A DNA stretch of 22,029 nt from a virus. The stretch spans positions 1-22,029 of the IMG/VR virus record IMGVR_UViG_3300049595_001137, one strand, 5' to 3'. The position numbers and the translations under genes were made by a program. Below are positions 2-19,994 of this stretch, piece after piece. The notes under the pieces are model-generated. The model worked only from the letters and a program-made list of their open reading frames with translations, searched no databases and was not told the DNA's origin. How positions within the stretch are numbered: position 1 is the first letter of the stretch; each line of letters begins with the position of its first letter.

Positions 2-739
2 ACTTGCCCCGTCATCACGGCCTTCATGGTCGCGTGGAATGACGCGTTGCCATCGGATGCTGACCGCGCCCGCCTGCTGCTGCCGCTGATTCCGGTGCTG
101 GTCGGGACGCGCGGGTCAAAGGCGCTCAAAACCCGCCGCGCCAATATGGCCGCTGACTGGTATATCCGGGTCCAGACGCCCGCATGGTTGCGGCTTGCCG
201 GACTGACGACGCAAGCCGAGGCTCTTGAGGCGTTCCCAGAGATCATCGACTTTTCCGCCGTGCCGTCGCTCAAGCCGACGCTAGGTGCCATCCGACAAGA
301 CGCGGCGGCGGCGTGGGATGCGGCGAGGGCGGCGGCGGGGGATGCGGCGAGGGCGGCAGCGAGGGATGCGGCGTGGGCGGCGGCGTGGGATGCGGCGAGG
401 GCGGCGGCGGGGGATGCGGCGGGGGCGGCGGCGTGGGATGCGGCGAGGGCGGCGGCGGGGGATGCGGCGAGGGCGGCGGCGCGGGCGGCGAGGGATGCGG
501 CGGGGGATGCGGCGAGGGCGGCGGCGGGGGATGCGGCGAGGGCGGCGGCGCGGGCGGCGAGGGCGGCGGCGCGGGCGGCGGGGGATGCGGCGGGGGCGGC
601 GGCGTGGGATGCGGCGAGGGCGGCGGCGGGGGATGCGGCGAGGGATGCGCTCGCTCCGACCCTGACCGCCCTACAGATCAGCGCCGTCGATCTGGTCAAG
701 CGTATGTGCGCGCTGACTGACAAAGCCAAGGGAAGGTGA
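2..739 (+). CDS. Ala-rich repeat protein of unknown function (5' partial)
   Basis: The reading frame is open to the left window edge, and the residues before the first ATG (base 26) read TCPVITAF in line with what follows. The gene therefore probably starts outside the window. The visible part has a normal globular stretch of about 90 residues (WNDALPSDADRARLL..., with the pattern LLPLIPVLVGTRGS), as I recall from N-terminal regions of small phage or plasmid proteins of unknown function. This is followed by about 120 residues of a near-perfect 8-residue repeat around DAARAAAx, and a short non-repeat tail (LTALQISAVDLVKRMC). In the repeat, Asp and Arg sit three positions apart, which would suit salt bridges along one long alanine helix; that is inference. 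Its stop overlaps the next start (TGATG), suggesting coupling. Function is unknown. Confidence 0.72.
   Translation, partial: TCPVITAFMVAWNDALPSDADRARLLLPLIPVLVGTRGSKALKTRRANMAADWYIRVQTPAWLRLAGLTTQAEALEAFPEIIDFSAVPSLKPTLGAIRQDAAAAWDAARAAAGDAARAAARDAAWAAAWDAARAAAGDAAGAAAWDAARAAAGDAARAAARAARDAAGDAARAAAGDAARAAARAARAAARAAGDAAGAAAWDAARAAAGDAARDALAPTLTALQISAVDLVKRMCALTDKAKGR
301..650 (+). repeat. In-frame 24-bp GC-rich tandem repeat
   Basis: The stretch is built from imperfect copies of a unit that reads roughly GGGGATGCGGCGAGGGCGGC with a short GGC filler, about 24 bases long and coding for DAARAAA plus Gly, Trp or Arg. Some units are shortened to 7 or fewer codons, but all length changes I can follow are multiples of three, so the frame is preserved. 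All three forward frames are free of stops here because the unit contains none. Such repeats can expand or contract by slippage or recombination. Confidence 0.85.
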
Positions 740-3096: not shown

Positions 3097-3379
3097 CGGG
3101 GGCATCCCTTGCTTCGGTTTCAGCCTGCGAGGCAATCTCGCGGATGATGGTCTCTCTGGTGTGGAACGTCTCGGTGGCGGTGCTGATCTCGGCTTGGCCG
3201 GTAGCTTGGCGCTCCAAGGTCGAGACCTGACCTTCCAGCCGCTCGGCCTTGGCCACGGCCTGACGCGCCGACCATTGCGGCGTGAACGGCACGAACCCGG
3301 CGAAGTGATTGAGCGCGGCGAGGGCCAGCAGGGCGGCGAGGACGTAGCCGACCAGCCGCCACGGGATGCGGGCAATCAC
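2948..3379 (-). CDS. Rz-like inner membrane spanin (i-spanin)
   Basis: The 143-residue protein has an N-terminal membrane anchor (about residues 9-30, LVGYVLAALLALAALNHFAG) followed by a periplasmic helical region with coiled-coil character (AVAKAERLEGQVSTLERQA) and a Pro-rich C-terminus. This layout is typical of Rz proteins. The start codon is GTG and overlaps the endolysin stop (GTGA), so translation is probably coupled to it. The Rz1-like lipoprotein gene begins inside it in another frame, which strengthens the assignment. Sequence similarity among spanins is low, so the call rests on topology and context. Confidence 0.77.
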   Translation of the reverse strand: MIARIPWRLVGYVLAALLALAALNHFAGFVPFTPQWSARQAVAKAERLEGQVSTLERQATGQAEISTATETFHTRETIIREIASQAETEARDAPDATTPLSQERADRLRLNDQRVCDNAPAICADPDPAAGRPPALPPAGPAG

Positions 3380-3759
3380 GGGTAGCGCCGCCGGTCGAGT
3401 TCGATGTGCGGCCCGTCACGCAAGGTTTTCCATGAACCGCCCCAGATGATCGGCACGTTCAGTTCCTTTGCCGCCCGCAGGAACGCTTCCGCGACCTGAC
3501 CATAAAGCGGCCAGTCCCAGCGGACCTTGCCGCCCACCAGCACCGCGAAGTCGATGGCGTGGCCGGTGATGTGCCGGGAGTTCATCGTCTGCGATGCGCC
3601 CGCCGCCTTGAGTTCACGCTGGCGAGCAACCGACCGCAGGCCCTCGGTGATGGTGAAATCGTGCGGGCTATAGGTCAGGGCAAGTTCAACCACGCGCACC
3701 AGATCAGGGTGAACGCCGGTCAAGCGGGCGCGGGAACGGGAGCCGAGAACGAACCCCAT
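3376..3759 (-). CDS. Endolysin, M15-family peptidase (L-Ala-D-Glu / D-Ala-D-Ala type)
   Basis: The 127-residue protein has the M15 peptidase zinc motifs: SRHITGHAID (H63 and D70) and DGPHIEL (H118), plus the conserved EGLRS segment at 39-43 and IIWGGSW at 104-110. It should cleave peptide bonds in peptidoglycan to open the cell at the end of infection. It has no signal peptide, so it would need a holin to reach the wall. The start at 3759 overlaps the stop of the holin candidate (TGATG), and AGGGG lies shortly upstream. The frame stays open further upstream, but that part only repeats the upstream gene in another frame. Confidence 0.9.
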   Translation of the reverse strand: MGFVLGSRSRARLTGVHPDLVRVVELALTYSPHDFTITEGLRSVARQRELKAAGASQTMNSRHITGHAIDFAVLVGGKVRWDWPLYGQVAEAFLRAAKELNVPIIWGGSWKTLRDGPHIELDRRRYP

Positions 3760-3995
3760 CACGCCACGCCCCTGATCTTTTCGATGCTCTTGATGCCGAG
3801 AACGGCGGCGGCATAGGTCAGCCACGCCACCAGATAACCCTCGTTCATGGGCTTCTCGATCATGGGGCCGACGAACCCGGCGTAGGCCGTGCCGACCACG
3901 ACGACCCAGCCAGCGGTCGGACGCCAGAGACGGTCGAACGCCTGCCAAGCCCAATGTTTGCGGATCGGGTGATCGGGGAGGGGAATGTCGGTCAT
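3759..3995 (-). CDS. Putative holin (two membrane segments)
   Basis: The 78-residue protein has a charged N-terminus and two hydrophobic segments: GWVVVVGTAYAGFVGPMI (about 29-46) and YLVAWLTYAAAVLGI (about 54-68), ending in a basic tail. The RPTAGW motif before the first segment resembles alphaproteobacterial phage and GTA holins. Holins open the inner membrane to let the endolysin through. It lies directly upstream of the endolysin and overlaps it by one base, which is the usual place for a holin. The second small membrane protein upstream could be the holin instead, or the two could act together. Confidence 0.66.
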   Translation of the reverse strand: MTDIPLPDHPIRKHWAWQAFDRLWRPTAGWVVVVGTAYAGFVGPMIEKPMNEGYLVAWLTYAAAVLGIKSIEKIRGVA

Positions 3996-9404: not shown

Positions 9405-10063
9405 CAGAAGGACTCGACCCAGACCGCAGTCGCGATCAGGTTGTTGTTGAGGTCCAGCGCGCCGAGGAAGTCGTCAGGGTTGGCCAGCCGGCAGACGACC
9501 GACGGCTGGGTGAAATCGAGCTCGGTGCCGACCGTGACGGCCTCGCGCAACGGCGGGCGGATGGTGATGTCGTTCCCGCTGACCCTCGAGATCGTGTAGA
9601 GCCTGCGCCCTTTCGTTGGGTGTGTGATGCTGAACCGCTCGCCGCCTTCCAGCGCCCCGACAATCATGGTCAGGGACAAGGTCGTGGCCCGAAGCGCAGC
9701 AGCCGCCGTCAGCGTCGCGCCGACCGGCACATGGCCGAACTCCGACCCGTCCGAGAAAGTGCTGTCGTCGGAAAAGGGAACCGTCGAGGCATCCGAGCCG
9801 CCCGGCGCGAACGGCGTCTCGAACACTCGCACGATGATCTCGCCGGTCCCGCCGTCGAGGCCCGCCTCAATCGCGCGGGCCGTTTTGATCTGGGCGCGCG
9901 AGTGGAAAAAGAACTCCTGCTCGATCACCCACAAGCCGCCGCCGTCCATGCGCGCCGACCGGACAATCCCGCCCACCGATTGCCCGCCGGTTATCGCCAC
10001 GCCCTGAAGGCGGGCGCGTTCGGCGCGCGGGGTCAGAAGGTTATACGGCCAGACGTCAGTCAT
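9404..10063 (-). CDS. Putative distal tail protein
   Basis: The 219-residue protein has GGGLWVIEQEFFFHSR in its first third, a beta-rich middle with a short loop-like insert (GALEGGERFSITHPTKGRRL), and IRPPLREAVTVGTELDFTQP followed by VVCRLANPDDF near the end. It comes directly after the tape measure, where Dit-like or DUF2460-like distal tail proteins lie. It overlaps the tape measure stop by one base (TGATG). I call it a distal tail protein from position; the sequence alone does not prove the fold. Confidence 0.6.
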   Translation of the reverse strand: MTDVWPYNLLTPRAERARLQGVAITGGQSVGGIVRSARMDGGGLWVIEQEFFFHSRAQIKTARAIEAGLDGGTGEIIVRVFETPFAPGGSDASTVPFSDDSTFSDGSEFGHVPVGATLTAAAALRATTLSLTMIVGALEGGERFSITHPTKGRRLYTISRVSGNDITIRPPLREAVTVGTELDFTQPSVVCRLANPDDFLGALDLNNNLIATAVWVESF

Positions 10064-11997
10064 CAGGTCGTCCCGAGAAGGCGTTGGCGGCTTTGCAGGC
10101 CGGGAGCCGACCGGCGCGAGGCGTCGAGAACTTGCCGCCCCATATTGCCCGCCGCCTGTTGAGCGACCGGCCCGGCGACACGCTCGACCTGAACGTCAAA
10201 GTAAGGCGACGGCACGACGTGAACCGCCATCTGGCCACTGCCCTGATCCTGCCCAGGCCGACGGATGTCCACCATCTCGCCCGGCGTGGCGCGGAACTGC
10301 ATCAGCTGGCTGTCGGCACCGCCGGACCCGCCGACCTTAAACGAGCCGCCGGTCTTGAAGCCGGGGATGCCCCCGGAAAAGGTTTTCAGCACCGAGCCGA
10401 CCGTGCCGAGCCAGCCCATCGCGCCACCGCCGGTCGAGCCCTTGGGGCCGCGCAGCATATTTGTCAGCGTGTCGGCGAGACCGTCGAAGAGCGCATCCCG
10501 AAGACGCTGGGCAAGGTACTGGCCGAGGTTGCCGTCCGCCGCAGCCTGAAGACCCGAGCGGATGCCGTCATAGGTGGAGGCCCGGAGGTTCTCCTCATGG
10601 TCGGCTGCAAACTGGATGGCATCCTCGCGGCGCTTTTCTGCGGCCTCGGCGTTCTCGTTTCGGATGCGTTCCGCCGCCTGTGCCAGCGGGTTGTTCCGCT
10701 CACGATCTGCGATCAGCGCAGCACGGGCACGGTTGAACGTGTCCTGACTGATCCCGCCGTTCGCCTCACCCCGAGCCCTCAAGGCTTCGAGGCGGATCAG
10801 TTCGGCGTTGTATTTTTCAAGCTCGGTTCGCGTGTCAGCAAACACGCGCGCGCTTTCAGCAGCGGCAGCTTGCGTGTCGCGCTGGGCAGCGGTCAGACGC
10901 TCAGTCTGGCGCGTCGTCCGGCCAGCGGCGTTCGCCGTGTCTTCAAGGTCTTCGGCCAGCGCGGGGACAACCGCTGAGCCAGCCTGAACCGTACTAAACA
11001 GGGCATTGATCTGGGAGAGGGTTCCACGGATCGAGGTCATAGCCTTGCCCGACCCGTACTCCCACGCCGCCGCAGCGCCAGCAAAGTCAAGATGGATCAC
11101 GCGCTCCATCGTCCTAACGAACGCAGCCATGTTCAGGCCCGCTGCCCAAATGGCTCCAGCCACGCCAACGAACACCGCGATGATCGAGTTCATCACAATG
11201 CCGAGACCGCGCCCGACAGTTTTCAGGCCCTCGGTATTTCTGGATGCCCCCGCCAGCGAACCGATCAATCGATCCAGCGACGGCAACATTCCAGTTGTTA
11301 TCTTCGTGACGATCCCGTCCTTAGTTTTGCCAAGGCGTGTCAGGTTATCGTTGAACCGTTCCGCCGCCGCCGCCGACTCGGTGTCCAGAACGACCCCGAG
11401 CTGCTCGGCCTCCTCATACATAGCCCGGAGTCCGGCCTCGCCCTCATTGAGCATCGGGATCATGTCGGCACCGGATCGACCGAAGAGCTTGATGGCCAGG
11501 GCCGTTTTGGCCGCGCCGTCCGGCAGGGTCTCAAACCGCTTGGCCAGATCACCGATCACATCGATGGCCGGTCGGATATTGCCCGCCGCGTCAGTCGCGC
11601 TGATCCCCAAGGTGCGGAACGCCGTAGCAGCTGGGCCGGTGGCGTTTTGGCTGGCATCATACAGGCCGACCGACAGCTTGCGGATCGACTTCTCAAGGTT
11701 CTCGGCGCTGACGCCCGAAAGGTCCGCCGCGTATTGCAGGCGGCTCAAGTCCTCGACCGTGACGCCGAGGGCCTGTGACGCCTCATACATCTGATCGGCG
11801 CGGTCGATCACGCCCTTCATGGCAAGCGCCATCGCACCGCCGGCGGCGACCATTGCGGTGCCGATAGCAAGGGCTCCCGCCTTGGCAACGCCCGCGAACC
11901 GCTGGAGGCCAGTCTGGGCGGTCTTCATGCCCGTGGTGAACTGAGCCGAGTCCAGCCCGAGGGTGACCCGAAGAGCGCCAACGACAGCTTGAGACAT
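10063..11997 (-). CDS. Tail tape measure protein
   Basis: The 644-residue protein starts with VVGALRVTLGLDSAQFTTGM, a typical tape measure opening, then has two hydrophobic stretches (about residues 38-62 and 263-293) and long helical segments (for example ELIRLEALRARGEANGG). The C-terminal part is Gly-rich (SGGIPGFKTGGSFKVGG) and has the TPGEMVDIRRP motif found at tape measure ends. It sets tail length. Using the rule of about 0.15 nm per residue, the tail would be roughly 95 nm, a short siphovirus tail. An AGAGGA site seven bases before the ATG supports the start. It directly follows the tail chaperones, as expected. Confidence 0.9.
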   Translation of the reverse strand: MSQAVVGALRVTLGLDSAQFTTGMKTAQTGLQRFAGVAKAGALAIGTAMVAAGGAMALAMKGVIDRADQMYEASQALGVTVEDLSRLQYAADLSGVSAENLEKSIRKLSVGLYDASQNATGPAATAFRTLGISATDAAGNIRPAIDVIGDLAKRFETLPDGAAKTALAIKLFGRSGADMIPMLNEGEAGLRAMYEEAEQLGVVLDTESAAAAERFNDNLTRLGKTKDGIVTKITTGMLPSLDRLIGSLAGASRNTEGLKTVGRGLGIVMNSIIAVFVGVAGAIWAAGLNMAAFVRTMERVIHLDFAGAAAAWEYGSGKAMTSIRGTLSQINALFSTVQAGSAVVPALAEDLEDTANAAGRTTRQTERLTAAQRDTQAAAAESARVFADTRTELEKYNAELIRLEALRARGEANGGISQDTFNRARAALIADRERNNPLAQAAERIRNENAEAAEKRREDAIQFAADHEENLRASTYDGIRSGLQAAADGNLGQYLAQRLRDALFDGLADTLTNMLRGPKGSTGGGAMGWLGTVGSVLKTFSGGIPGFKTGGSFKVGGSGGADSQLMQFRATPGEMVDIRRPGQDQGSGQMAVHVVPSPYFDVQVERVAGPVAQQAAGNMGRQVLDASRRSAPGLQSRQRLLGTT

Positions 11998-12000
11998 CGC

Positions 12001-12219
12001 TTATCCTCTTGCTGCCCACGCCGCGAAGATCGCTTCCATCTCGGAAACGGTCTGTCGGCGGGCGGTGCGCTTCGTGCCCATCAGGCTTTCAAGCGCCGGG
12101 AACTTTTCCATGCGAGGCAGGGCGGCGGTATGCCACGCCAGCCACGCCCGGTTTTTCTGATCCAGCGCAAATCGATCAGACGCCCCGGCGAAGACCAGCG
12201 CCATCACGCGCGGCGTCAC
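12001..12219 (-). CDS. Second tail assembly chaperone segment, probably made by -1 frameshift
   Basis: The frame from the GTG at 12219 gives 72 residues (ending in KRTARRQTVSEMEAIFAAWAARG), but the same frame stays open well upstream and reads WDWPSLLQAWVSIGQPEERFWLVTPR before that GTG. This upstream part looks like genuine conserved protein, and the GTG has no good ribosome site. The segment AWLAWHTAALPRM is typical of the second tail chaperone of siphoviruses. The likely product is a fusion with the upstream chaperone, made at the slippery site at 12303-12309. That fusion would be about 210 residues. In lambda the matching pair is gpG/gpGT. Confidence 0.68.
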   Translation of the reverse strand: MTPRVMALVFAGASDRFALDQKNRAWLAWHTAALPRMEKFPALESLMGTKRTARRQTVSEMEAIFAAWAARG

Positions 12220-12245
12220 CAGCCAGAAGCGCTCTTCGGGTTGGC

Positions 12246-12632
12246 CTATTGAGACCCAAGCTTGAAGGAGCGACGGCCAGTCCCAGCCGCCGCTCCCTTC
12301 CGAGGGTTTGCGGGTTCGTCTTTCGCGTCAGGGAAAGCCGAGACCAGCGCCTTGCCGATACCGTCGAGGGCGAGGCCAGGGCCTCCCATCTCTTCGATCA
12401 GATTGCCCGCGCCGATCAGGTCAACGTCGGCATGCTGCTGGCGCAGACCGCCCCAGAGAAGGGCGCGAACAACGTGCAACGGCGGGGAACTCGCCAGAGC
12501 GCGAAGGATCTGATCGGTCGAGAGGTTGAGGATATACTCGACCTCGCACATCGCATTGATGTTGAAGGCCAGCGTGTAATCCCGCTGGCCAACACGGATC
12601 GACGCCTCACCCTTTTGGGCGTTCGCACCCAT
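12246..12632 (-). CDS. Tail assembly chaperone (GTA-gp10 / gpG-like)
   Basis: The 128-residue protein has IRVGQRDYTLAFNINAMCEVE and LSTDQILRALA, a pattern of the short tail assembly chaperones found between the tail tube and tape measure genes, including those in gene transfer agents. It would coat the tape measure during tail assembly. The C-terminal 25 residues are Ala/Gly/Arg-rich and unlike the rest. In this region lies an in-phase slippery heptamer that would divert a fraction of ribosomes to the -1 frame. The short form ends at TAG (12246). Confidence 0.77.
   Translation of the reverse strand: MGANAQKGEASIRVGQRDYTLAFNINAMCEVEYILNLSTDQILRALASSPPLHVVRALLWGGLRQQHADVDLIGAGNLIEEMGGPGLALDGIGKALVSAFPDAKDEPANPRKGAAAGTGRRSFKLGSQ
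12303..12309 (-). promoter_or_regulatory. -1 ribosomal frameshift slippery site A_AAC_CCT
   Basis: On the minus strand the bases read AAACCCT, the canonical X_XXY_YYZ form, and the reading phase is right: the chaperone codons are GCA AAC CCT. Slipping back one base gives AAA CCC TCG, which is the frame of the downstream chaperone segment; that frame has no stop from here to 12001. A GC-rich stretch with possible stem structure follows within 10-30 bases. Confidence 0.7.
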
Positions 12633-12636
12633 AGGC

Positions 12637-13053
12637 TTAGCCCGCCGCGTAAACGGGCTTGCCGGTCACTTTGATCGTCAGGCTCATGGCCACCTTGTCA
12701 TCGATCACGACATCATCGAACGCAAAGGCGGTCGGAATGCCCGAGAAGGTGAAGGTCGAGGAACCGGGGAAGGTCACGCGCCACGTCTCGACACCGGCCA
12801 GAACCAGCGTCTGGAGCAGGGTCGCGCTGGCCTCGACATAGTTCAGGTTGACGGTGACCTCGCCGCCGTCCTTCAGGCTGGGGATGTATTCGCGGAAGCC
12901 ATCGTCGGACCCCATGTGGGTCGTCTCGACCGTCTCGACATTGATCGAGGGCGGGGTGACCGACAGAACCTCGGCCAGCGAGGTGTAGGTCGAAGGCGCG
13001 GATTCATAGGCGAAGACCGCCCCAAACCCGTTAACAGCAGCGGAAGCGGCCAT
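12637..13053 (-). CDS. Major tail tube protein
   Basis: The 138-residue protein starts GFGAVFAYESAPSTYTSLAEV and has VETTHMGSDDGFREYIPSLKDGGEVTVNLNY, the hallmark of siphovirus tail tube proteins of the lambda gpV/TTP type. The C-terminal half is beta-rich (VTFPGSSTFTFSGIPTAF, MSLTIKVTGKPV). It polymerises into the hollow tail around the tape measure. AGGAG nine bases before the ATG supports the start. Neighbours on both sides fit: tail completion before, chaperones after. Confidence 0.87.
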   Translation of the reverse strand: MAASAAVNGFGAVFAYESAPSTYTSLAEVLSVTPPSINVETVETTHMGSDDGFREYIPSLKDGGEVTVNLNYVEASATLLQTLVLAGVETWRVTFPGSSTFTFSGIPTAFAFDDVVIDDKVAMSLTIKVTGKPVYAAG

Positions 13054-14711: not shown

Positions 14712-15287
14712 TCAGACCCCGACGCGCCGGTAAGGGCGGATCAGGGCGTCAACGGCCATCGGCACGTCATACATCTGGCCAGGGGCGACCGCCTCGCGGT
14801 TGGCATACCAGTGGCCGACCATCAGCAAGATCGCGTGTTTGATTGGCGCGGGAACCGCACTGTCGGCAACCCCGGCAACATAGGTCACCGAGATCGCATC
14901 CCGGCGGGAATAGACAGACGGGAAGGTCTGGTCCGGCTTCAGCGCCAGATATGCCCCAAACTCATCTGCAAACAGTCCATAGACCGTGCCGGCCAGCGTC
15001 TGGACGGCATTGTCGGCGTCGTAATAGGTGACGCTGGTAATCGACGCGACCGGCCCGAGCGCCAACCGAAGCGGGTCAGAGAATGACTCCAAATCCTGCC
15101 GCCAAGTCTGGGTGACCAGCGCGCGCCCGAGGACGCCCTCATAGCCGTCAAGATAGGCCGTTGCCGCCGAGATCAGCAGGCCGATCAGGGTGTCGTCGTC
15201 GCTATGATCGACGCGGCATTGTGATTTCGCTTCCGTCAGCGTGACGGGGTTTGTCGCCGGGGCAGAAGTGCGAACCGGGGACAGCAT
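14712..15287 (-). CDS. Head-tail connector (gp6-like)
   Basis: The 191-residue protein has VTLTEAKSQCRVDHSDDDTL, LISAATAYLDGYEGVLGRAL and a C-terminal helical part HAILLMVGHWYANREAV, typical of gp6-like head-tail connectors (HK97 gp6, DUF3168-adjacent slot). It forms a ring below the portal. The ATG at 15287 overlaps the stop of the upstream gene (TGATG) and has GAGGG seven bases upstream. The frame is open to 15341, but that extra part lacks family features and overlaps the upstream gene. Confidence 0.85.
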   Translation of the reverse strand: MLSPVRTSAPATNPVTLTEAKSQCRVDHSDDDTLIGLLISAATAYLDGYEGVLGRALVTQTWRQDLESFSDPLRLALGPVASITSVTYYDADNAVQTLAGTVYGLFADEFGAYLALKPDQTFPSVYSRRDAISVTYVAGVADSAVPAPIKHAILLMVGHWYANREAVAPGQMYDVPMAVDALIRPYRRVGV

Positions 15288-16090
15288 CAGAGATCCCTCG
15301 CCGCGCTGATAATGCGCTCCAGCACCGACCGGGCGTCGCATTGAACCGTCTGGCCGTTCGTCAAGTCGAACGAGAACACGCCAAAGTCGTCCAGCGACAC
15401 GGCCTTCACCGTCGCGCCGGGTTCGCCGCGCTCGCCCTTGTCGCCCTTGTCGCCACGCTCGCCAGCCGCGCCGCGCTTGCCTTGGGCCGACATCAGTTGC
15501 CAGCCCTCGCCGGGGCAGGGACCGGGGTTGTCGATCTTGGCCACAAAGGCAGCACCGTTCAGGGCCACGACATCGAGGGCCTGATATTCGTTCTCGGTCG
15601 CCCAGGTTCCCCGGATGACCATGCCGGGCGCATCCCGGCCATCAGCGCCGCGCTCGGCAATGCAAGCCCAGTCGTCCGATCCCGGTTCGCTGCCCGTGTC
15701 CTTCAGGGCCTGCCAAGTCTGGCCGGCATGGGTGACCACGTCGCCCGCATAGTAAACCTCAGACGCCCATGCCTTCGCGACCGGCAGCATCCCGGCGGGT
15801 CCGCGTTCGCCGCGTTCGCCGGGGTCGCCTTTGTCACCGCGCTCGCCGTCCGTGAGCTTCTCCAGCCGGGCCGTGATCGCGGCGTCGAGGGCGTTAAGCC
15901 GCGCTTCCGATTCTGCGGCCTTCGCGCTTGCCGTTGCCATAATGGCCTCGGCCTGGGCCTTCAGCAGATCAAGTTCTCCCCGCGCGCGGGACACGACCTG
16001 ACCGAGCGAACGCTCCAGCGCCTCAGTGTAGGAGGGCGAAGGCATTGATGCGTTCGGAGATTGCCTCGGGAGAGTCTGCGCTCTGGTCAT
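15287..16090 (-). CDS. Collagen-like protein with carbohydrate-binding modules in the head module
   Basis: The 267-residue protein has a coiled-coil-like helix (about residues 21-80), then six Gly-X-Y triplets (82-99), a domain with WASEVYYAGDVVTHAGQTW (about 108-145) resembling chitin-type carbohydrate-binding modules of family 5/12, a second similar region (about 160-200, with WATENEYQALDVVALNG), eight more Gly-X-Y triplets (204-227) and a short C-terminal domain. Collagen-like triplets form trimeric rods. Its place between portal and connector suggests a virion surface or head fibre; that is inference. It overlaps the portal end by 68 bases from ATG 16090. An in-frame ATG at 16045 would give 252 residues. 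Neither start has a strong ribosome site. Confidence 0.75.
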   Translation of the reverse strand: MTRAQTLPRQSPNASMPSPSYTEALERSLGQVVSRARGELDLLKAQAEAIMATASAKAAESEARLNALDAAITARLEKLTDGERGDKGDPGERGERGPAGMLPVAKAWASEVYYAGDVVTHAGQTWQALKDTGSEPGSDDWACIAERGADGRDAPGMVIRGTWATENEYQALDVVALNGAAFVAKIDNPGPCPGEGWQLMSAQGKRGAAGERGDKGDKGERGEPGATVKAVSLDDFGVFSFDLTNGQTVQCDARSVLERIISAARDL

Positions 16091-18107: not shown

Positions 18108-19994
18108 TCAGTAGCTGGTGCCGTTGATCCACTGGACGACGCCGCTGCGGCGCATGGTCCAGCTTACGTCCAGCACCATGCGGACGCCCATCGAGTTGGT
18201 CTGCCAGAGCGAGCGAACCGGATCAGCCGTGGTCGGGCCGGTGCCGCTGACGATTTCCAGAGGCGTGGTGTCCTCCATGTGGATCGTCGCCTGCTCGGAC
18301 ACGTCAAACGCGGGGTTGCCGCCGGCCGCCACGAAGTCCGAGTTGCGGAGCGCAACCAGACGCCCGGCGGTGGCCGAGGTGGACTCGATGATGGTGACGC
18401 GGTCGCGGATTCGCTGGAACCAGTTCGGATCGCCGACCGGGCCTTCCATCAGGGACAGGGCGAGGCCCTGAGCCGGATTGATGACGACCGTGATGTTGTC
18501 GGCGGCATTGGCCGTGAAGAACGGTTGGAGCAGGGCTTGGAAGTCGGCACGGACGGCAGCATAGTCACCACCGGCATAACCGGCAGCAGCAGCCGAGACG
18601 CCGTTCAGGAGGCCGGCAGGACGCGAGGTGCTGGAAGCGGTGGCGTCCAGCAGGATCGGGTCCAGGGCGGCGGCGGTGTCTTCGAGGATGGCTTGGCGCA
18701 CGATGGCCTCGATGGCCGGGGTCGAGCGGTTGGCCAGTTCCTTCGAGAACGCGACGATGACGCCCATTTTCTTCGGGGTCAGGGTAGCGGCAGCGGTCGT
18801 GATGCGACCGACCTTGATGGGCGAGCCTTCACCGACAAAGCCACCGGCAGCGCCGCCAGCGGTGCGGCTGGGCAGCTTGATCTCGCCGTAGCGGTCGAAC
18901 GCCAGCGACAGACCACGACCGGCGAGGGCCGGATAGATCGAGAACGGCTGGAGGGCGTTCAGGAACCCGAAATAGCCGGTCTGCATCAGTTCAGCGGACC
19001 AGCCCGAGACCGTGGTGGTGCCGATGGTCTGGTCGGCCTTCATGATGACGCCGAGGGCTTCGTGGCCGGTGTAGCGTTGCTCGATGACCTGATCGACGGT
19101 CTGGCCGGTGTGAGCCGCGATGCCTCGAACGACGGCGGCGCGGACGATCAGGTCCATGCCGTCCTTTTCGGTGTGGCCCAGAACGCGGCGCGGCGAGGCC
19201 GGCACCGAGGCGGGGCTCGAGCGTTCAGCGTTGACGCCGATCTTGGCTTCCGACGCCTTCAGGGCGTTGAAGGTGCGCTCGGCGGTGCTGACGATCTCGG
19301 TCTGGGCTTCGATGGCATCCAGATCGAGGGTTTCGGCAGCGTTCAGTTCGGACAGGCGGTCGCGCGAAGCGTTCAGGTCGTCCTGAGCCTTCACGACGCG
19401 GTGGGCGAGGGTGTTTTCCATTTTGGAGGGGTTCCTTGGAGATTGAGGGAGGTCGGCGGATCGGGCTTGCTCGCCCTTGGACACGTCCCGCCGCCTCACT
19501 TCGGCTTGCTCGCCAAAGGCCAGGGACATGATTTCTTCGGACACTTGCATCGACTTCGCGACCGCGAGCGCGGCCGGGTTTGCCGGGACAGAGACCAGAG
19601 AGGTTTCGAGCAGTTCCTGCTCGAGATAGCGTTGGCCGGCGTAGGGCTTGCTGGGATCGATGGGCTCGGCCTTCTTCGGCATGAACCCGACCGAGACCGC
19701 CCGCAGGATGCCCTGCTCGACCAGTCCGATTAGTTCGTCGATCCGGGCACTGGTGCCGCGCGCCGCGAGGTTCAGTCTGCCGATCAGCTTGCCGCCCTCG
19801 ACGCGAAGGTCGGACCAGCGGCCGATGGGGTAGTCGTGCGAGTGCCCGAACAGCGCGATGGGATTGCGCTCGAACGACGCCAGATCCCAGCCCTTTGCCA
19901 CAATCGAGTCGCCGTAGCGGTCAACCGTGGCATCGGACAGGACAAACTCCATCCCATCGCCACCACCGGGCGAAGCCTTGCGGATAAGGGTCAT
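18108..19994 (-). CDS. Fused prohead protease and major capsid protein (HK97 type)
   Basis: The 628-residue product has two parts. Residues 1-165 form an HK97-type (U35/S78) prohead protease: H51 in LFGHSHD, S101 in AVSVGF, and E130 in LLETSLVSVPANP. After a linker, residues from about 192 form the capsid protein: a scaffold-like helix (VVKAQDDLNASRDRLSELNA) as the delta domain, then the HK97 fold with VSGWSAELMQTGYFGFLNAL, GVIVAFSKELANRSTPA and WFQRIRDRVTII. An in-frame ATG at 19421 (residue 192) has AAGGA about 11 bases upstream and could make a separate 437-residue capsid protein, which would be needed in far more copies than the protease. GGAGG eight bases before the ATG at 19994 supports the main start. 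Confidence 0.9.
   Translation of the reverse strand: MTLIRKASPGGGDGMEFVLSDATVDRYGDSIVAKGWDLASFERNPIALFGHSHDYPIGRWSDLRVEGGKLIGRLNLAARGTSARIDELIGLVEQGILRAVSVGFMPKKAEPIDPSKPYAGQRYLEQELLETSLVSVPANPAALAVAKSMQVSEEIMSLAFGEQAEVRRRDVSKGEQARSADLPQSPRNPSKMENTLAHRVVKAQDDLNASRDRLSELNAAETLDLDAIEAQTEIVSTAERTFNALKASEAKIGVNAERSSPASVPASPRRVLGHTEKDGMDLIVRAAVVRGIAAHTGQTVDQVIEQRYTGHEALGVIMKADQTIGTTTVSGWSAELMQTGYFGFLNALQPFSIYPALAGRGLSLAFDRYGEIKLPSRTAGGAAGGFVGEGSPIKVGRITTAAATLTPKKMGVIVAFSKELANRSTPAIEAIVRQAILEDTAAALDPILLDATASSTSRPAGLLNGVSAAAAGYAGGDYAAVRADFQALLQPFFTANAADNITVVINPAQGLALSLMEGPVGDPNWFQRIRDRVTIIESTSATAGRLVALRNSDFVAAGGNPAFDVSEQATIHMEDTTPLEIVSGTGPTTADPVRSLWQTNSMGVRMVLDVSWTMRRSGVVQWINGTSY

Follow-up and report, generated by a model that had tools for sequence, protein, structure and literature searches.

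The locus and its genes

In the window, by which the whole stretch of 22,029 nucleotides analysed here is meant, the tail tube and tape measure genes flank two small reading frames that overlap, and the question arises how the second of these is translated. An earlier note had proposed that ribosomes slip back by one base on a heptamer in the first frame and in this way make a fused tail chaperone. The window is a 22-kb virus record whose minus strand carries the structural genes of a tailed phage, namely those for the small and the large terminase, the portal, a fused protease-capsid protein, connectors, and the tube protein, the two small ORFs, and the genes for tape measure, tail tip, and fibre. 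The order tube protein, ORF1, ORF2, tape measure was obtained from the ORF list and from profile searches in the window. The features are as follows.

12246..12632, minus strand: ORF1, tail assembly chaperone (G-like), 128 amino acids, from the ORF list with profile and fold matches
12001..12303, minus strand: ORF2, -1 frame extension (T-like), 100 amino acids, beginning with TCG 12303 and closed by the stop at 12003-12001
12001..12632, minus strand: predicted frameshift product (derived), ORF1 residues 1-110 (..DEPANP) followed by SEGSGGWDWPSLL.., 210 amino acids
12303..12309, minus strand: slippery heptamer A_AAC_CCT in the phase of ORF1, with the conserved core C_CCT at 12306-12303
12265..12298, minus strand: putative stimulatory RNA hairpin with a stem of 12-14 bp and the loop GGGACU, 4-6 nt past the site
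12637..13053, minus strand: major tail (tube) protein, the upstream neighbour (PF16461 Phage_TTP_12, E=7e-14)
10063..11997, minus strand: tape measure protein, the downstream neighbour (phrog_8462, E=3e-74; PF10145)

The range 12246-12632 given in the earlier note covers ORF1, but the feature as a whole extends to 12001. In a reading-frame scan the -1 frame was free of stop codons from 12327 until the one at 12003-12001, the end given in the note, and its overlap with ORF1 measures 82 nt.

Some other genes of the window were recorded on the way. The prohead protease (Peptidase_S78) and the HK97-type major capsid protein form one fused ORF of 628 amino acids (18108-19994, minus strand), a fusion likewise annotated in Paracoccus phage Pben1. 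Between the portal and connector genes an ORF of 267 amino acids (15287-16090, minus strand), which overlaps the end of the portal gene, has a CBM_5_12 match and collagen-like Gly-X-Y repeats. A calcineurin-like phosphoesterase (PF00149; 1703-2791, minus strand) is found near the lysis region, and a Peptidase_M15_4 protein resembling D-Ala-D-Ala carboxypeptidases (3376-3954, minus strand) is the probable endolysin. On the strand opposite to the structural genes, a 237 amino acid ORF (26-739, plus strand) consists mostly of an alanine-rich repeat (DAARAAAGDAAWAAA..) and contains a tandem array of 24/48 bp with 14.8 copies at 304-649; this region is open in several frames, and a Pfam search with the ORF gave no match.

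Protein families of the two reading frames

ORF1 matches phrog_2115, a tail protein family (E=5e-10), and ORF2 matches phrog_19318 (E=2e-21) from WDW onward. The Phage_TAC_11 family of gene transfer agent (GTA) gp10 (PF11836) is matched by 10 of 12 members of the ORF1 family with a best value of 1e-6, the window protein itself reaching E=0.024 and 15.2 bits where the curated cut-off is 27.8. Phage_TAC_6 (PF09550) is matched by 7 of 12 ORF2 family members (best 2.5e-4); the window ORF2 has no Pfam match to it, and its match to TIGR02216 (E=0.0026, 18 bits) lies below the cut-off of 56. ORF1 is probably a distant relative of GTA gp10, and ORF2 one of Phage_TAC_6. A structure predicted for ORF1, computed from alignment rows of the window and virus contigs only, had a pLDDT of 81 and weakly resembled annotated phage tail assembly chaperones in a viral structure library and, also weakly, the ORF1 of Caulobacter phage Kronos; a search of the model against the PDB gave no significant match.

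The slippery site in the window

ORF1 reads GCA AAC CCT CGG at the site, so that AAACCCT lies at 12309-12303 of the minus strand in exactly the position and phase that the earlier note had given. ORF1 contains three in-phase X_XXY_YYZ patterns, AAAGGGT at 12615, TTTCCCT at 12336, and AAACCCT at 12309, of which only the last leads into the open -1 frame; it is also the sole one within the 82-nt overlap. TTTCCCT at 12336 was rejected as a slip site, a -1 slip there meeting TGA at once. At a background of 0.0048 per codon, at least one heptamer would be met by chance in about 28 codon positions in roughly 13% of cases, and the decision must therefore come from relatives. No upstream stimulator of the Shine-Dalgarno type is visible in 12340-12310. 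The heptamer had been called canonical, and it does fit the X_XXY_YYZ pattern, but with C as Y it falls outside the efficient motifs. In A_AAC_CCU, X and Z are moreover of different kind, which makes it less shifty by the rules for E. coli (PMC4066793) and counts against frameshifting here.

Conservation of the site among relatives

With ORF1 and ORF2 as queries, relatives were sought among viral contigs, in the records of phages and plasmids, and in genomes. Genome contigs scanned with ORF1 gave no match, and a genome scan with a narrower ORF2 query gave two loci. The 55 distinct loci analysed, isolates and bacterial prophages included, form 31 clusters at less than 70% identity in ORF2. With ORF1 taken as the zero frame, ORF2 lies in the -1 frame in every one of the 31 clusters, and by comparison the proposed -1 frameshift to a tail chaperone fusion is well supported. 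An in-phase heptamer occurs in the overlap in 21 of 31 clusters, where 4.3 would be expected from the rate elsewhere in ORF1; when C_CCN is counted as well, all 31 have a site (14.4 expected).

The earlier note had suggested looking for the heptamer itself in related chaperones, and the answer was divided: many relatives lack AAACCCT, yet they have C_CCU or C_CCC in the same place or another slippery heptamer. AAACCCT is present in the near relatives of the window and in L045, L060, L061, L097, L102, L105, and L106. In the near family the codon preceding C_CCU varies among AAC, CGC, GAC, and CAC, and in those relatives with CGC, GAC, or CAC ahead of CCT or CCC the first tRNA is unable to re-pair. 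More distant relatives have G_GGA_AAG (L018, L062, L092, L109, L110) or G_GGA_AAC (L047, L093, L099, L017), and single ones A_AAA_AAG (L016), C_CCC_CCG (L108), or G_GGC_CCT (L014). The proline codon of the C_CCN site is CCU in 18 of 19 clusters as compared to 17% of proline codons in the same ORFs (p = 2e-13), a value which is optimistic, since the clusters share ancestry, and to which protein constraint may add, the U of CCU being also the first base of a serine codon in the -1 frame. CCG makes up 51% of the proline codons in these ORFs. The codon ahead of C_CCN ends in C in all 19 clusters (p = 3e-6 against background usage, likewise optimistic). Within the near family it is C_CCU that is kept as the core, and not the whole heptamer.

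A hairpin downstream of the site

Folding of the 47 nt past the site gave -26.7 kcal/mol with a z score of -3.8, whereas the stability of the full 101-nt region is ordinary for its composition (z = -0.8). The hairpin, at about 12298-12265, starts 4-6 nt beyond CCT depending on the basal pairs counted. Frameshift-stimulating structures usually begin 5-8 nt downstream of the motif (PMC4066793). The hairpin lies within the range of about 4-10 nt past a Z_ZZN or X_XXZ_ZZN motif that serves as a criterion for a signal with an RNA stimulator (PMC4066793). The relatives keep the same spacing, with stem lengths differing by 3 bp between groups; the arms were paired by register, MAFFT having misaligned the left arm between groups of unequal stem length. 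Complementarity of the arms scored 308 within sequences, against 270.5 +/- 5.5 when arms were permuted between sequences (maximum 286 of 500 permutations), in a test which ignores phylogeny and in which kinship inflates the score. Compensatory double changes are found from C-G to A-U in L040 and L097 and from G-C to A-U in L097 and L111. A different stem is formed in L060 and L106, and the hairpin is weak or absent in L041, L101, L105, and L107. The earlier note overlooked this strong structure and overstated the heptamer.

Start codons and alternative explanations

As the earlier note had pointed out, the first ATG, GTG, or TTG of the -1 frame is GTG 12219, and starting there would cut through the conserved part, the homology of ORF2 beginning at WDWPSLL upstream of every start codon. 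The conserved FW motif is preceded by no ATG, GTG, or TTG in 21 of 31 clusters, and only 2 of the 31 have a start at least 15 residues ahead of it; in most clusters ORF2 can therefore be no separately started gene. Nor do the relatives begin ORF2 at a conserved start of its own, the outcome named in the note as speaking against its proposal: across the 31 clusters no such start was found. Annotators have usually chosen a separate gene starting at GTG 12219 or elsewhere. In two bacterial chromosomal homologues (L095, L094) the second gene does own a start, placed where it overlaps the first gene in GTGA or ATGA. The public record of Agrobacterium phage Rivra lists two genes, the second from an internal GTG, and those of Kronos and Paracoccus phage Psul1 do likewise. 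An internal start, however, would remove WDWPSLL..FW, the most conserved part of ORF2. The first start comes after FW in most clusters, at a place that differs each time and that in L041 is as late as residue 72 of 104. Such a start would also leave the conservation of C_CCU and of the hairpin unexplained, and we regard a separate gene as improbable. Truncated ORF2 calls are present in the records of Rivra, Kronos, Psul1, and Pben1, and in a Devosia plasmid (NZ_CP063402.1, L111:1561-1812) the ORF2 homologue was missed and a gene on the opposite strand annotated over it.

If the frames are joined during translation, the slip might also occur elsewhere in the overlap or be a +2 shift, as the open frames by themselves leave the slip point unfixed within 82 nt. 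Three relatives (L038, L046, L048), however, have a stop of the ORF2 frame just upstream of the site, which places the slip at the site or later, and in others ORF1 itself ends soon past it, within 13-22 nt for instance, so that a short stretch is left in which C_CCN or a heptamer is the only re-pairing site. This stretch is a composite of different sequences, and on it we consider another slip point or a +2 shift less probable still than a separate gene. A sequencing error or a gene broken by an indel could be entertained for a single contig, but the arrangement is repeated in 55 distinct loci of 31 clusters, isolates and bacterial prophages among them, by which this reading is already refuted. 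Hard to credit as well is slippage of RNA polymerase, which does yield mixed frames in some bacterial genes but requires runs of about eight or more A or T, where the site has only AAA CCC.

Proposed mechanism

The arrangement of the ORFs, the site, the hairpin, and the conservation of all these can be read directly from the sequences, and it is very likely on this comparative ground that a -1 frameshift at 12309-12303 joins the two tail-chaperone ORFs. From them we infer the slippage itself, its efficiency, the tRNA that moves, and the role in assembly. In all likelihood the phage produces a tail-assembly helper protein in two forms by means of a -1 slip and an RNA hairpin, and the relatives reveal on which part of this signal selection acts. 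The majority of ribosomes would read ORF1 through to its stop and yield the short chaperone. Some would stall at the hairpin with tRNA-Pro on CCU, in the A site or moving to the P site, and this tRNA would re-pair one base back, from CCU to CCC, where in the window tRNA-Asn could partly follow from AAC to AAA. Translation in the -1 frame would then give a fusion of 110 + 100 = 210 amino acids, with the junction between ...DEPANP and SEGSGGWDW... (DEPANPSEGSGGWDW... as the predicted junction sequence) and DEPANPSEGSGGWDWPSLLQAWVSIGQPEER as the predicted junction peptide of the window phage. On the model of lambda gpG/gpGT, assigned here by analogy, coating of the tape measure protein would fall to the short form and recruitment of the tail tube protein to the fusion, the two being made at a set ratio.

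The minimal -1 motif is Z_ZZN (PMC5009743), and C_CC.U and C_CC.C are shift-prone tetramers in E. coli, well above background, for which a strong stimulator is required (PMC4066793); of the C_CC.N tetramers, just these two shift efficiently there, and they correspond to CCU and CCC, the codons found at the site. We lean, with some reserve, towards a phage family of alphaproteobacterial type which would form its chaperone fusion via a single tRNA-Pro slip at C_CCU rather than a two-tRNA heptamer, together with a covarying hairpin. A_AAC_CCU would be one of several recurring upgrades, and GTA-like chromosomal copies would have swapped frameshifting for stop-start coupling, or the reverse.

Comparison with known systems

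Frameshifting in tail chaperones has long been known, and the pair of the window is a lambda G/GT-like one of the kind usually misannotated. In lambda G/GT-type systems the fusion is made at a low set ratio and is needed for tail assembly. As in lambda, two overlapping ORFs lie between tube and tape measure genes, the second is in the -1 frame without a start of its own, and the first has towards its end a slippery site, which is kept in phase among relatives, although the exact heptamer varies and in the near family the C_CCU core is what is conserved. For lambda gpG/gpGT the programmed -1 frameshift occurs at G_GGG_GGA and has many siphophage counterparts (Xu, Hendrix, Duda 2004, as cited in PMC5009743), and in the model the short form sits on the tape measure while the fusion recruits the tube protein (PMC5009743). 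Unlike the lambda pair, that of the window belongs to other chaperone families, as probable relatives of Phage_TAC_11 and TAC_6, uses another slippery motif, and has a strong conserved hairpin with compensatory changes. Chaperone frameshifts have been reported in general for Rhodobacter capsulatus phages (PMC8601537); a limited literature search turned up no description of the ORF1/ORF2 family as frameshifted and no chaperone pair that naturally employs C_CCU. The additions made here are the member itself, the hairpin, a conserved core of C_CCU in place of the heptamer, and the difference from GTA-like copies. A complete candidate signal of site, spacer, and hairpin is now at hand for a chaperone family whose two parts stand in public records as separate genes, the second product truncated.

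The same ORF pair and frames occur in Rivra (CGC_CCC), in the Paracoccus phages Shpa (A_AAA_AAG), Pthi1 (G_GGA_AAC), Pben1, and Psul1 (both G_GGA_AAG), and in Kronos (C_CCC_CCG), whose records list two separate hypothetical genes. The C_CCU sites resemble the Z_ZZN tetramers, of which IS1222 G_CGA_AAG is an example (PMC5009743) and whose C_CC.Y forms have been measured in E. coli (PMC4066793): re-pairing is open only to the tRNA on the second codon, and the shift depends on a strong structure downstream. Nature has here provided a series in which the conserved hairpin is combined with C_CCU after four different codons and with several full heptamers, and which lends itself to the question of whether slippage takes a single tRNA or two. 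GTA gp10 and the rcc01693-type protein (Phage_TAC_6; TIGR02216), whose genes follow one another as ORF1 and ORF2 do, are their probable distant homologues. In the two chromosomal TAC_6 copies, which are probably GTA genes, the second gene has its own ATG or GTG in a 4-nt stop-start overlap and a frameshift is unneeded, which suggests that frameshifting and translational coupling alternate, as two solutions for gene pairs that are homologous between phages and GTA-like elements.
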